From Bacillota bacterium (GTDB lineage Bacteria > Bacillota > Sulfobacillia > Symbiobacteriales > ZC4RG38), in assembly GCA_021890795.1 (NCBI GenBank), contig JAKKUO010000024.1, forward strand, positions 1 to 32,666: a DNA stretch of 32,666 nucleotides, in the 5' to 3' direction. Positions 1,774 through 16,651 of this stretch are shown piece after piece. Every line of letters starts with the position of its first letter. The stretch's first letter is position 1. A program made the position numbers and the translations under genes. The notes beneath the pieces are model-generated. The model ran no database searches. It was not told where the DNA came from and saw only the letters and a list, made by a program, of their open reading frames with translations.

Positions 1774-2433
1774 TCAGGCCCCCATGGAGGGACCGGCCCC
1801 TCCGGCCGGCGCCGACGGCCCTCCGGATCCCGGCGATGCCGCTTCGGAGGCCTCCGACCTCGCCTCGATACCCCGGAAGAGGACGTCGACGAAGAAGTCG
1901 GCCATCTCTTCCAGGGAGAGGGGGCCGTCGGGCCGGTACCAGCGGTAGAACCAGTTGCAGGCGCCCAGGACGGTGCGGCAGACCAGCTTGGGGTTGAGGG
2001 GGCGGAAGACCCCTTCGGCCACCCCCTCCTGGTAAATCCCCTCCACCAACTCGTTGTACCGCCGGGTCTCCCGGTCCACGATGGCCCGCTGCTCCGGCGT
2101 GAGGGCATGGGCCTCCCGCAGGAAGACCGTCAGCATCCCCAGGTTGGTGGCGATCCCCTTCAGGTGATGCCGGACCGCCTCGGCAAACTTCTCCCGGGGG
2201 GGCAGGTCGCTCCGGGCGATCTCCTCCAGGTTGCTGATGTACTGGGCCAGAGCCTCCCGGATGATCAGGATGAGGAGGTCCTCTTTGCTGGAGATGTAGT
2301 GGTACAGGCTCCCCTTCTGCAGTCCCACGGCATCGGCGATGTCCTGCATGGAGGTGGCATGGTACCCCTTGTCCTTGAACAGTTGAATGGCAGCAGCCAT
2401 GATCTCCGCCATCTTGTTGCTACCGGACACCAT
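1774..2433 (-). CDS. TetR/AcrR family transcriptional regulator
   Basis: The protein is 219 residues. Its N-terminal TetR helix-turn-helix is clear: MQDIADAVGLQKGSLYHYIS (about residues 25-44), followed by SKEDLL. The rest is the helical ligand-binding and dimerisation domain. The C-terminal 30 residues are Ala/Gly/Ser/Pro-rich and probably disordered. ATG 2433 has GGAGG six bases upstream. Upstream in-frame codons back to 2652 look like non-coding sequence. The helix-turn-helix resembles regulators of fatty-acid degradation (the FadR/YsiA type), which fits the divergently placed ACP-like gene at 2706, but the ligand is unknown. Its own operator probably lies in the 272-bp divergent gap, where no clear palindrome could be assigned. 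Confidence 0.88.
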   Translation of the reverse strand: MVSGSNKMAEIMAAAIQLFKDKGYHATSMQDIADAVGLQKGSLYHYISSKEDLLILIIREALAQYISNLEEIARSDLPPREKFAEAVRHHLKGIATNLGMLTVFLREAHALTPEQRAIVDRETRRYNELVEGIYQEGVAEGVFRPLNPKLVCRTVLGACNWFYRWYRPDGPLSLEEMADFFVDVLFRGIEARSEASEAASPGSGGPSAPAGGAGPSMGA

Positions 2434-2705
2434 CGGTTCCTCCCTCAGTCTCCCAGTGCTCGGGGCAACCGCCGCCGGGCCGCCCCTGGCCCGGCGCGGC
2501 CATGCCACCACGGTCGGGATAGCCCCCCTCGGCCAATCGGCCAGAACTGCCGCTGAACTGCAACACCCTCTTTTCCAGGTACGTTTCGAGGAGGTCCCAC
2601 ACATTCCTGCTCCAAGCCTTGCTTTCCCCTTGTCCCCCTCCTTGGGCACCAACCCCGCATGGCCGGAGCCGGAGCGGACAGACTACCCGCCGGAGGTGAG
2701 CCCCC
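2434..2705. promoter_or_regulatory. divergent intergenic region between the TetR and ACP-like genes
   Basis: This 272-bp GC-rich gap separates two divergent starts, so both promoters and any TetR operator must lie here. The GGAGG site for the TetR gene and a GGAGGTGA site for the ACP-like gene (about 2692-2700) are clear. No -35/-10 pair or palindrome stands out enough to be named. Confidence 0.4.
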
Positions 2706-2990
2706 GTGCTGACCAAGCAGGAAGTGCTCCGGTGCATCCGGGAGATCGCCGCCCCCCGGAAGGTGACGATGGACACCGACCTGGCAGAACTCCTGGAGGA
2801 CCTGGACGATGGCCTGGAGGGGCTGATCGAAAGCCTGGAGGACGAGTTCAACATCGAACTCCCTCAGGAGAGCATTCTGGAGGCCGAAACCGTCGGGGAC
2901 CTCTGCTACCTGGTGATTCAGGCTTCGGCACCACCGTACCCGTCAGGACCCACCCCCGAAGCCCATCCTTCGCCTCCCATGAACCCCTGA
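2706..2990 (+). CDS. acyl-carrier-protein-like small protein lacking the phosphopantetheine serine
   Basis: This is a 94-residue acidic protein starting at GTG 2706, with GGAGGTGA six bases upstream. Residues 40-65 read like helices II-III of an acyl carrier protein: LIESLEDEFNIELP, then a TVGDL block at 62-66. Aligning back from that block, the DSL motif that carries phosphopantetheine falls at L33-D34-D35, so aspartate replaces the modified serine. It therefore looks like an ACP fold that cannot carry a 4'-phosphopantetheine arm. It could be a regulatory or scaffold homologue, or an unrelated small helical protein. The C-terminal 20 residues are proline-rich. It is transcribed away from the TetR gene and ends before a strong hairpin at 3020. 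Confidence 0.6.
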   Translation: MLTKQEVLRCIREIAAPRKVTMDTDLAELLEDLDDGLEGLIESLEDEFNIELPQESILEAETVGDLCYLVIQASAPPYPSGPTPEAHPSPPMNP

Positions 2991-3117: not shown

Positions 3118-4449
3118 TCAGCTGAGGGCCAGCAGCTCTTCCTCCATCACCGTCAGGGCCTCGTCCAGCTGGTCGTCGGTGATCACCAGGGGCGCCAGGA
3201 TCCGCACCACGTTGCCGTAGATCCCCGCCCGGAGGGCGATCACCCCCCGGCGGATGCACCGCCGGAGAAGCTCCGCCGTCTCCTCGGTGGCCGGCTCCCG
3301 GGTCTCCCGGTCCCGGACCAGCTCCATGGCCATCATCGCCCCCAGCCCCCGGACCTCGCCGACCAGGGGGCTCCGGGCCGCCATCGCCTCAAACCGCTGC
3401 CGGATCCGGTCGCCGATGACCCGGGCCCGCTCCACCAGCCCCAGGCGGTCCATCTCCCGGAGGACCGCCAGGGCCGCCGCGCAGGCCACCGGGTTGCCGG
3501 GGTAAGTACCGCCGATGGTGGAATCCTCGGGGCTGTCCATGATCTCCGCCCGGCCGATCACCCCGGAGAGGGGCATCCCCGCCGCGATGGACTTGCCGAC
3601 GGTGATAAGGTCCGGCTCGATACCGAAGTGCTCGCTGGCGAAGAACCGCCCGGTGCGGCCGTAGCCGGTCTGGATCTCGTCGACGATCAGAAGCACCCCG
3701 TACCGGCGGCAGATGGCCTGGACCATGGGCAGGTACTCGGCCGGCGGCACCACGAAGCCGCCCTCCCCCTGGATGGGCTCGAGGATGACCGCCGCGGTCT
3801 CCTGGGGGGAGACCACGGTCAGGAACGCCCGCTCCAGGGCCTCGGCGGCCTGCCGGGCCACCTCCGCCGGCGACGGCCGGCCGGGCCAGCGGTAGACGTA
3901 GGGGAAGGGCACCCGGTAGATCTCCGGAGCGAAGGGGCCGAAGCCTTCCTTGTACGGCCTCACCTTGCTCGTCAGGGCCATGGTCAGGTTGGTTCGGCCG
4001 TGGAAGGCCCCCTCCATGGCGATGATCGCCTTGCGGCCGGTGTACTTCCGGGCGATCTTGACCGCGTTCTCCACCGCCTCCGCCCCGGAGTTGAAGAAGG
4101 CCACCTTCTTGGGGAAGGAGCCGGGGGCCCGGCGGCTGAGTTCCTCCGCCAGCTGGATGTAGCTCTCGTACGGGACGACGCTGAAGTCCGTGTGGGTGAA
4201 CCGGGCGGCCGCCTCCTGGATCGCCCGGACCACCTCGGGGTTGCTGTGGCCCACGTTGAGACAGCCGACGCCGCCGGCCAAGTCGATGAAGGTGTTGCCG
4301 TCCACGTCGGTGATCAGGGCGCCTTCCGCCCGGTCGATGACCACCGGCACGTGGACCGACAGGGCCCGGGGAACCACCCGCTCCTTCCGTTCCAGCAGGG
4401 CCCGGGAGCGCGGACCGGGGATCTCGGTGACGAGGCGGATGTTCGCCAT
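3118..4449 (-). CDS. gabT: class III aminotransferase, GabT-like (4-aminobutyrate aminotransferase family)
   Basis: This 443-residue PLP enzyme transfers an amino group, probably from 4-aminobutyrate or another omega-amino acid to 2-oxoglutarate. Visible family motifs in order are NSGAEAVENAVKIAR (PLP phosphate), FHGRT, VILEPIQGEGG, VDEIQTGYGRTG (the PLP-contacting Asp), the Schiff-base lysine in TVGKSIAAGMPLSG, and GGTYPGNPVACAAA, which is typical of GabT-like members. Length is normal for the family. ATG 4449 has GGGAGG about ten bases upstream. The open frame extends to 4530 but the extra residues are not family-like. Substrate cannot be fixed from sequence, and related ornithine or beta-alanine transaminases are alternatives. 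An inverted repeat lies in the upstream gap. Confidence 0.87.
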   Translation of the reverse strand: MANIRLVTEIPGPRSRALLERKERVVPRALSVHVPVVIDRAEGALITDVDGNTFIDLAGGVGCLNVGHSNPEVVRAIQEAAARFTHTDFSVVPYESYIQLAEELSRRAPGSFPKKVAFFNSGAEAVENAVKIARKYTGRKAIIAMEGAFHGRTNLTMALTSKVRPYKEGFGPFAPEIYRVPFPYVYRWPGRPSPAEVARQAAEALERAFLTVVSPQETAAVILEPIQGEGGFVVPPAEYLPMVQAICRRYGVLLIVDEIQTGYGRTGRFFASEHFGIEPDLITVGKSIAAGMPLSGVIGRAEIMDSPEDSTIGGTYPGNPVACAAALAVLREMDRLGLVERARVIGDRIRQRFEAMAARSPLVGEVRGLGAMMAMELVRDRETREPATEETAELLRRCIRRGVIALRAGIYGNVVRILAPLVITDDQLDEALTVMEEELLALS

Positions 4450-4515
4450 GGCGTCGAACCCTCCCAAGCGTCCCCGCGGCTGGACAGCCCCGGTGGGACG
4501 AGGATTATGCAGCAA

Positions 4516-4563
4516 TGAATAAGGTTCCACCGGGGAGCGGGCGGTTCCTGCCGGCCTTATTCA
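4516..4563. promoter_or_regulatory. 9-bp inverted repeat upstream of the aminotransferase
   Basis: TGAATAAGG (4516-4524) and its exact complement CCTTATTCA (4555-4563) are separated by 30 bases, in an AT-richer patch of the 142-bp gap between the HD and aminotransferase genes. It could be a long-stem terminator for the HD gene or a two-site operator for the aminotransferase. No T-tract follows, which slightly favours an operator. Confidence 0.4.
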
Positions 4564-4591
4564 CCCTTGCATAGGCCCTGCATCCCCCGGG

Positions 4592-5197
4592 TTAGCCGCC
4601 GGCACCGGCCGCCCCCAGTTCCTGGGTGCCGGCGATACCCAGCTCCTCGGCCACGGGCTTGAGGGCCTCGATGACAAAGGCGATGTGCTCGTCCAGGGGG
4701 ATGCCCAGGGCCTCCGCCCCTGCGTAGACATCCTCCCGGCTGACGCCGGCGGCGAACCGCTTGTCCTTCAGCTTCTTTTTCACCGCGGCGACATCCACCT
4801 CATGGATCGACTTGCTGGGCCGCACCAGGGCGACGGCGATGACAAAGTTGGAGAGCTCATCGCAGGCGAAGAGCGCGCGGTCGAGGAGGCTCTTCCGGGG
4901 GGCGATGTGCTGGAGATAGTTGGCATGGGAGAGAATGGCGTAGATCATCTCCTCCGGGTACCCCTTGGACCGGAGGATCTCCGCGGCCTTCAGGGGATGG
5001 GTCTCCGGAGAGGGCCACTTCTCGTAGTCCATGTCGTGGAGCAGCCCTGTCAGCCCCCAGAGGTCCTCGTCCTCCCCGAACTTCCGGGCATAGGCCCGCA
5101 TGCAGGCCTCCACGGCCAGCATGTGCTTCAGCAGCCGGGGATCCTGGGTATATTCCTTGAGAAGCGCCAGGGCTTCCTCGCGCGTCGGCAGAGGCAT
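4592..5197 (-). CDS. HD-domain protein (HDIG family hydrolase)
   Basis: The protein is 201 residues with an HD metal-dependent phosphohydrolase domain covering most of its length. The ligand pattern is H in LLKHMLAVEACMRAYA (about residue 20-25), HD in GLLHDMDYEKW (about residue 54), and further His residues in THPLKAAEIL and ILSHANYLQH. This small single-domain type is widespread and mostly uncharacterised, and a nucleotide or phosphoester substrate is likely. ATG 5197 has GGGAGGT seven bases upstream. The last 15 residues are Gly/Ala-rich. It is divergent from the cobalamin adenosyltransferase and points toward the aminotransferase, but the 142-bp gap argues against tight coupling. Confidence 0.8.
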   Translation of the reverse strand: MPLPTREEALALLKEYTQDPRLLKHMLAVEACMRAYARKFGEDEDLWGLTGLLHDMDYEKWPSPETHPLKAAEILRSKGYPEEMIYAILSHANYLQHIAPRKSLLDRALFACDELSNFVIAVALVRPSKSIHEVDVAAVKKKLKDKRFAAGVSREDVYAGAEALGIPLDEHIAFVIEALKPVAEELGIAGTQELGAAGAGG

Positions 5198-5364
5198 CGC
5201 ACGACCTCCCGAATCTGGTGGCTTCCGTTAAGGTATTGGTGCGCGTGTTGGCATTATTTTACCACAATGGTCTCACAGGATCGAAAGGGCTGCCGCCCCT
5301 GGCAGGAGGGGCGGCGCGCCGGGTGGAACTACCGGAAGAACCACCGGAAGCGGAGGGATGCCGG

Positions 5365-5943
5365 GTGAAGATCTATACCCGCACCGGGGACCAGGGCGAG
5401 ACCAGCCTGCGGTGGGGCCAGCGGGTCCCGAAGGATGCCCTGCGGGTGGAGGCGTACGGCGCGGTGGATGAGGCCAACTGCCTCATCGGGCTGGCCCTGG
5501 CCCATCTCCAGGCCCCGGGGGACGGACCGGAACCGGAGGTGCTGGGCCGGGTCCGGGAGATCCTCCTCCGGGTGCAGCGGGAGCTCTTCGACGTGGGCGC
5601 GGACCTGGCGGTGCCGCCGGAGCGGAGCAAGGGCGAAGCCCCCCGGATCACCGCTGCCCACGTCTCCGGGCTAGAGGCATCTATCGACGAGCTGGACGGG
5701 GGCCTACCGCCCCTCCGGCACTTCATCCTCCCCGGCGGCAGCCTGGCCGCGGCCGCCCTCCAGACCGCCCGGGCGGTGACCCGGCGGGCCGAGCGCCGGC
5801 TGGTGACCCTCGCCCGGCAGGAGCCGGTGGACCCGGAGCTGCTGCGGTACCTGAACCGGCTCTCGGACCTGCTTTTTGTCTGCGCCCGGGCCGTCAACCA
5901 CGCCCTGGGGATACCGGAGCCGCAGGTCACCTGGAACCGGTGA
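5365..5943 (+). CDS. PduO-type ATP:cob(I)alamin adenosyltransferase
   Basis: This 192-residue enzyme transfers the adenosyl group of ATP to cob(I)alamin to form coenzyme B12. The N-terminal signature YTRTGDQGETSL, the VEAYGAVDEANCLIG helix, LPGGS in the middle and RYLNRLSDLLFVCARAVN at the end are those of the PduO/MMAB trimeric fold, and the length is typical. The start is GTG 5365 with GGAGGG about eight bases upstream. The in-frame upstream stretch back to 5218 is not family-like, and ATG 5358 is out of frame. In the usual family motif the residues after TSLxxG are FGGERV-like; here the sequence is RWGQRV, a mild deviation. No B12 riboswitch is recognisable upstream. Confidence 0.92.
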   Translation: MKIYTRTGDQGETSLRWGQRVPKDALRVEAYGAVDEANCLIGLALAHLQAPGDGPEPEVLGRVREILLRVQRELFDVGADLAVPPERSKGEAPRITAAHVSGLEASIDELDGGLPPLRHFILPGGSLAAAALQTARAVTRRAERRLVTLARQEPVDPELLRYLNRLSDLLFVCARAVNHALGIPEPQVTWNR

Positions 5944-16329: not shown

Positions 16330-16404
16330 TGGTGGGCCCAGAGGGATTCGAACCCCCAACCAAGTGATTATGAGTCACCTGCTCTACCGTTGAGCTATGG
16401 GCCC
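16330..16404 (-). tRNA. tRNA with CAU anticodon (elongator Met, or Ile2)
   Basis: This is a 75-nt cloverleaf including encoded CCA. The acceptor stem pairs GGGCCCA with TGGGCCC and A is the discriminator. The D-arm is GCTC-AACGGTA-GAGC, the anticodon loop is CTCATAA, and the T-arm is GGGGG-TTCGAAT-CCCTC. Anticodon CAU is read as Met, or as Ile if the C is lysidinylated by TilS. The sequence does not begin like initiator tRNA. The C4-G69 and C5-G68 pairs also occur in Ile2 tRNAs, so the amino acid cannot be settled by eye. Confidence 0.93.
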
Positions 16405-16575: not shown

Positions 16576-16651
16576 TGGCTCCGGCAGCAGGACTCGAACC
16601 TGCAACCCTCCGGTTAACAGCCGGATGCTCTACCCATTGAGCTATGCCGGA
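16576..16651 (-). tRNA. tRNA-Asn (GUU)
   Basis: This is a 76-nt cloverleaf including encoded CCA. The acceptor stem pairs TCCGGCA with TGCCGGA and G is the discriminator. The anticodon loop is CTGTTAA, giving GUU (Asn), and the T-arm is GCAGG-TTCGAGT-CCTGC. It lies 171 bp upstream of the CAU tRNA with its own promoter and terminator. Confidence 0.97.

Follow-up and report, generated by a model that had tools for sequence, protein, structure and literature searches.

The window analysed here, a stretch of 32,666 nucleotides, holds a short gene for a protein resembling acyl carrier proteins (ACPs), which lies between a divergent TetR-family regulator gene and a convergent aminotransferase gene (Table 1). 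The protein consists of an ACP-like domain (residues 1-73) followed by a proline-rich tail (residues 74-94). A preliminary description of this DNA had placed it in the interval 2434-2990; the gene itself takes up only 2706-2990, and the remainder is the divergent intergenic region. Its start is well fixed because only two codons separate the preceding in-frame stop from the GTG, and wherever upstream DNA of a relative was read, the same Shine-Dalgarno motif precedes its copy. The tail is found only in the window's genus; one relative (G002) has a tail of other sequence, and the remaining ones stop soon after the domain.

Table 1 Features of the window around the gene for the ACP-like protein, with other elements mentioned in the text.
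Feature	Position	Strand	Remarks
TetR-family regulator gene (TetR_C_24, FadR-like), divergent	1774..2433	-	adjoining in 3/8 genomes
Divergent intergenic region	2434..2705		holds a block common with the sister species
Block CGGCCAATCGGCCAGAACTGCCGCTGA	around 2529..2547		possible operator or promoter candidate
Shine-Dalgarno GGAGGTG	2692..2698	+	sequence; seven bases 5' of the GTG
Serine-less ACP-like protein gene	2706..2990	+	94 aa ORF; GTG start, TGA end
Asp34 codon	2805..2807	+	ungapped equivalent of the phosphopantetheine serine
Cys67 codon	2904..2906	+	helix IV
Proline-rich tail, codons 74-94	2925..2987	+	
Class-III aminotransferase gene, 4-aminobutyrate transaminase type, convergent	3118..4449	-	TIGR00700, 560 bits, cut-off 506.65
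tRNA gene	16333..16404	-	Rfam
tRNA gene	16579..16651	-	Rfam

Surroundings of the gene

One homolog of the ACP-like protein was found in each of eight genomes (G000-G007), all placed in the same order, the order-level Symbiobacterium group. The constant neighbour in these genomes is the aminotransferase (gabT-like) gene, which is convergent with the ACP-like gene in all eight and 60.7-98% identical to the window's copy; in G006 the two genes are about 2 kb apart. Beyond it, genes for an HD-domain protein and a cobalamin adenosyltransferase were observed in G000-G005 (window 3118-5943; loci L018-L024), and these were not found in 16 kb of G006 or in 6 kb of G007. A DUF3825 protein adjoins the gabT-like gene in G003 (L020, 5050-6153), and DUF3825-like ORFs were recognised by eye at the same place in G004 and G005 (L021, L022).

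The TetR gene is immediately divergent in all three genomes of the window's family (G000, G001 and G002). An ortholog (60% or more) is present in four of the eight genomes, including a copy in G006 that lies 5.5 kb away, while three genomes carry weaker relatives (36-44%) elsewhere and G004 has no TetR relative at E<=1e-20. The pairing of the two genes noticed in the preliminary description is therefore real and divergent, but confined to one family: asked for elsewhere, as had been suggested there, it recurs in 3/3 genomes of that family and not in the other genomes, four of which hold only weaker relatives or none. The regulator, to which that description ascribed a fatty-acid type, has a FadR-like profile match, but against the model for FadR of Bacillus (NF053878) it reaches 81.8 of 200 bits, far below the equivalog cut-off.

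Outside the window's family, the DNA divergent from the ACP-like gene begins with an acyl-CoA ligase (AMP-binding) gene followed by one for an SCP2 protein in G003, with an acyl-CoA ligase gene in G004, and with an acyl-CoA dehydrogenase gene in G006, where ligase, CoA-transferase and TetR genes follow together with a gene that is SCP2-like by resemblance. In G007 the upstream ORF encodes an RCC1-repeat protein on the same strand, and the sequence of G005 ends at the ACP-like gene. In six of the seven genomes whose upstream DNA is visible, that DNA thus carries either a FadR-like regulator or a gene of fatty-acid degradation. Five sequences related to the G003 ligase lie elsewhere in the window's genome, the best at 56%.

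Within the intergenic region, the block CGGCCAATCGGCCAGAACTGCCGCTGA has hardly changed between the window's genome and the sister species (L018), while much of the region drifts. A candidate TetR operator pattern, made from the block common to the three intergenic regions of the family, had 57 matches in the genome compared with 46 for a backward control, and the operator was not supported. Searches near the ACP-like gene gave no match to a sigma-70 promoter, a terminator or an RNA family, and the two tRNA genes are the window's only Rfam matches.

Homology to acyl carrier proteins and the serine column

The window protein matches the Pfam PP-binding profile (PF00550) with 19.6 bits, compared with a cut-off of 20.8 (E 0.0011, profile positions 37-64 of 67). 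All eight members match this profile weakly at E<=1 (best 1.4e-5), and the relative from G002 exceeds the cut-off (24.8 bits, positions 37-67). With TIGR00517 the window protein scores 19.7 bits, under the curated threshold of 70.45. A profile built from ten canonical ACPs gives the eight members 14.5-28.4 bits, and none of the 7,753 shuffles scored (8,000 were made) equalled the score of its own member. A comparison of the family with the ACP family by hhalign returned 96.2% (E 2.2e-9), and carrier proteins, by name, make up nearly all of the 60 PDB sequence matches listed. DUF1493 (PF07377) was matched weakly and below its cut-off (E 0.16) by one of the eight members, the window protein.

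AlphaFold2 was given the alignment of the eight sequences, with no canonical ACP included; its model of the window protein has pLDDT 81.0 and pTM 0.64, and that of the relative from G006 has pLDDT 88.9 and pTM 0.74. Helices of the window protein are modelled at 4-15, 26-32, 36-48, 54-59 and 63-74. With both models, the 50 Foldseek matches listed for each were carrier proteins or short chains from carrier-containing complexes, as classed by title and length rather than chain by chain; they include ACP chains of the Isd11-Nfs1, complex I, MukBEF and FtsHi complexes. TM-scores were 0.5-0.76 and the best E values 6.9e-3 (window protein) and 2.0e-3 (G006 relative), with nothing at E<=0.001 for either model. 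VIA-align gave Z up to 10.7, and since Z below about 13 may reflect a common helical-bundle arrangement, ACP homology rests on sequence and structure together. The four-helix ACP bundle is predicted to be retained. Based on these profile comparisons, the window protein is a strongly diverged second ACP homolog of its genome, which bears out the description of it as ACP-like, with a predicted ACP fold and homology beyond chance. It is filed here as a serine-less ACP homolog and not as an ACP.

None of the eight members has the Asp-Ser-Leu site to which phosphopantetheine is attached, and the family has no invariant serine. In the ungapped alignment the columns of Asp35-Ser36-Leu37 hold L, I, Y or F, then D in four members, E in three and P in one, then D, G or T; in the order G000 to G007 the serine column reads D/D/P/E/D/E/D/E. 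This column, that of Asp34 in the window protein, corresponds in the same alignment to Ser36 of E. coli, whose numbering is used for Asp35 and Leu37 as well. Nearby, the Val40 column has become E in six members and L in two, and the Met44 column E in seven and D in one. The exact equivalence of Asp34 and Ser36 is not certain because profile alignments (hhalign, and HMMER for the best PDB match) alternatively place Asp-Ser-Leu in a three-residue deletion. In G003, G004 and G005 a serine stands two columns on, in a TSM triplet, where the other five members have D or G. Each of the eight genomes also has a separate ACP gene above the PP-binding cut-off; Asp-Ser-Leu was read in seven of these ACPs, and that of G002 is a PF00550 match of 63.6 bits at positions 2-67.

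The loss of the modified serine that had been proposed for the window protein is therefore common to all eight relatives. The placing of Asp34 at the serine position agrees with the ungapped alignment of the window protein, but the column as a whole is D4/E3/P1 and the deletion is an alternative to it. The suggestion that this Asp mimics a phospho or acyl state was rejected as a claim on account of the mixed column, the ambiguous alignment and the acidity of the whole domain (net charge -9 to -14); such mimicry is possible for the window protein alone. Two motifs that had been assigned to helices II-III, EDEFNIELP (45-53) and TVGDL (62-66), fall instead at the end of helix II with its loop and at the start of helix IV. 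Neither of the refuting conditions set in the preliminary description was borne out: the two predicted models match ACP structures, and no homolog keeps the serine at another aligned position, with the reservation of the TSM serine in three members.

The alignment of the eight members has 16 invariant columns, and ten of these residues lie within 47-67 (E47, F48, E51, L52, E55, T62, V63, G64, L66 and C67). Invariance is also seen at Thr24, as at Thr62. Cys67, which adjoins the invariant Leu in helix IV, takes the position of Ile69 in E. coli. Four pairs were compared for dN/dS (Nei-Gojobori): G000/G001 gave 0.26 within the domain, and the pairs among G003, G004 and G005 gave 0.22, 0.15 and 0.22. 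Judged by these comparisons, the 94-codon ORF is a real gene under selection.

Searches of the class, a draw from the phylum, a genome-contig collection and plasmids turned up no member of the family beyond the Symbiobacterium group. Within the class (154 genomes, 1e-4) 21 genomes matched, eight with the members and 13 with ACPs that have Asp-Ser-Leu, and the phylum draw (398 genomes, 1e-6) gave 13 matching genomes, two from the family and 11 that keep Asp-Ser followed by L, I or V; the 13 and the 11, which are those reaching 1e-4 and 1e-6 respectively, are the sequences read outside the order. A pattern scan of the genome-contig collection (84,980 species), whose recall is incomplete as G002, G003 and G004 have no matching record among its hits, found five loci, of which four belong to the Symbiobacterium group and the fifth, from Eubacterium ruminantium, is a canonical ACP that has Asp-Ser-Leu. 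The plasmid search gave no match to the ACP-like protein.

Candidate functions

The most probable explanation, to which we give a probability of about 0.6, is that of a non-carrier docking protein with the ACP fold that is independent of phosphopantetheine. With its attachment site lost the protein would carry no acyl group, and without carrier chemistry its function would therefore lie in contacts with other proteins. The surface for a partner would be the conserved stretch from the acidic end of helix II through helix III into the start of helix IV, the acidic side by which canonical ACPs dock. The invariant Leu66 holds the position of Ala68 of E. coli in the acyl pocket and would fit a closed pocket. 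On the weaker ground of the neighbourhood, the partner may belong to fatty-acid degradation or its control, possibly the acyl-CoA ligase, the acyl-CoA dehydrogenase or the TetR regulator, and the ACP-like protein would act as a non-acylatable adaptor or decoy. This link to fatty acids, drawn only from the neighbourhood, is plausible; as a part of the reading judged by itself, fatty-acid degradation is held tentatively and falls well short of an even chance. Convergence or divergence of two adjacent genes does not imply a common function, and the fatty-acid neighbour varies by family, with the RCC1-repeat ORF in its place in G007. Rather doubtful is the full version, an order-wide ACP paralogue without carrier chemistry that is now a dedicated regulator or adaptor of fatty-acid degradation through pseudo-ACP docking alone. 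Against the docking reading as a whole stand also the Foldseek E values and the low Z, by which the fold may be no more specific than a common helical bundle, and the two invariant threonines, at which a modification could be made instead.

If modified elsewhere, at Thr24, at Thr62 or, in the three members with this residue, at Ser36, the protein would still be a carrier. The TSM triplet two columns from the expected site speaks for such a role, but five members have D or G there, no serine is invariant, the residues round the site are altered in all eight and, in one test described in a study of Ralstonia (PMC9542644), neither AcpS nor Sfp modified ACPs with Thr in place of Ser; a carrier is therefore very improbable. 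Perhaps the least credible alternative is a functionless duplicate in decay, which would account for the loss of the active site but hardly for a syntenic gene in 8/8 genomes with 16 invariant residues and dN/dS of 0.15-0.26. The divergent gene pair in the window's family and the FadR-like profile match of the TetR protein would also suit a regulatory ACP that acts directly on the adjacent TetR as co-repressor or anti-repressor, no acyl group being needed, and acyl-AcpB is a ligand of FabT in enterococci and streptococci according to PMC13046290. FabT, however, is a MarR protein whose ligand is acylated, the ACP-like gene occurs in 8/8 genomes whereas the TetR ortholog occurs in 4/8, and the site is lost just as completely where TetR is absent, all of which makes direct action on TetR improbable. 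As likely as the dedicated fatty-acid adaptor, and hence likewise doubtful, is a structural subunit of a non-lipid complex, comparable to ACP with Isd11-Nfs1 or MukB. This is exactly the kind of role that a serine-less ACP has in Plasmodium according to PMC8547962, and chains from such complexes are among the fold matches; yet no recurrent partner gene points to one, and the gabT-like neighbour is convergent and not co-transcribed. Returning to the docking protein, the window protein is probably a binding partner or regulator and not a carrier.

Relation to known carrier proteins

Besides its part as a carrier, ACP is known to bind non-lipid proteins, and since cells cannot do without the carrier the two roles are hard to separate. 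A bacterial ACP homolog that naturally lacks the carrier site, in cells with another ACP gene, sets carrier and binding roles apart. Literature searches, several of them with narrow queries and thus weak as evidence of absence, returned no free-standing bacterial serine-less ACP. The five ACPs of Ralstonia described in PMC9542644 all keep Asp-Ser-Leu.

Canonical AcpP (PF00550/TIGR00517) resembles the window protein in predicted fold, in the segment from the end of helix II through helix III to the start of helix IV, and, in the ungapped alignment, in total spacing from Val20-Thr21 onward. The window family differs from it in having no Asp-Ser-Leu and in the invariant Leu66 and Cys67. AcpB, the second ACP of streptococci and enterococci, is similarly linked to a fatty-acid regulator, and in E. 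faecalis acyl-AcpB is a stronger ligand of FabT than acyl-AcpA (PMC13046290). AcpB, however, acts through its acyl chain on the MarR-type FabT, whereas the window protein lacks the usual attachment site, and the regulator gene near it, directly adjoining in only 3/8 genomes, is of the TetR family. The nearest precedent is the mitochondrial ACP of Plasmodium falciparum (PF3D7_1208300), which has Phe for Ser, is essential, carries no phosphopantetheine and binds Isd11-Nfs1; in the BLAST query of its authors (PMC8547962), other serine-less homologs came only from apicomplexans and one chromerid, Vitrella. Both this protein and the window protein are serine-less ACP homologs of organisms that have a canonical ACP as well, and the window protein would likewise work without phosphopantetheine. 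The Plasmodium protein has a Ser to Phe change in a eukaryotic organelle and a known partner, while the window protein is bacterial and has the whole surround of Asp-Ser-Leu changed.
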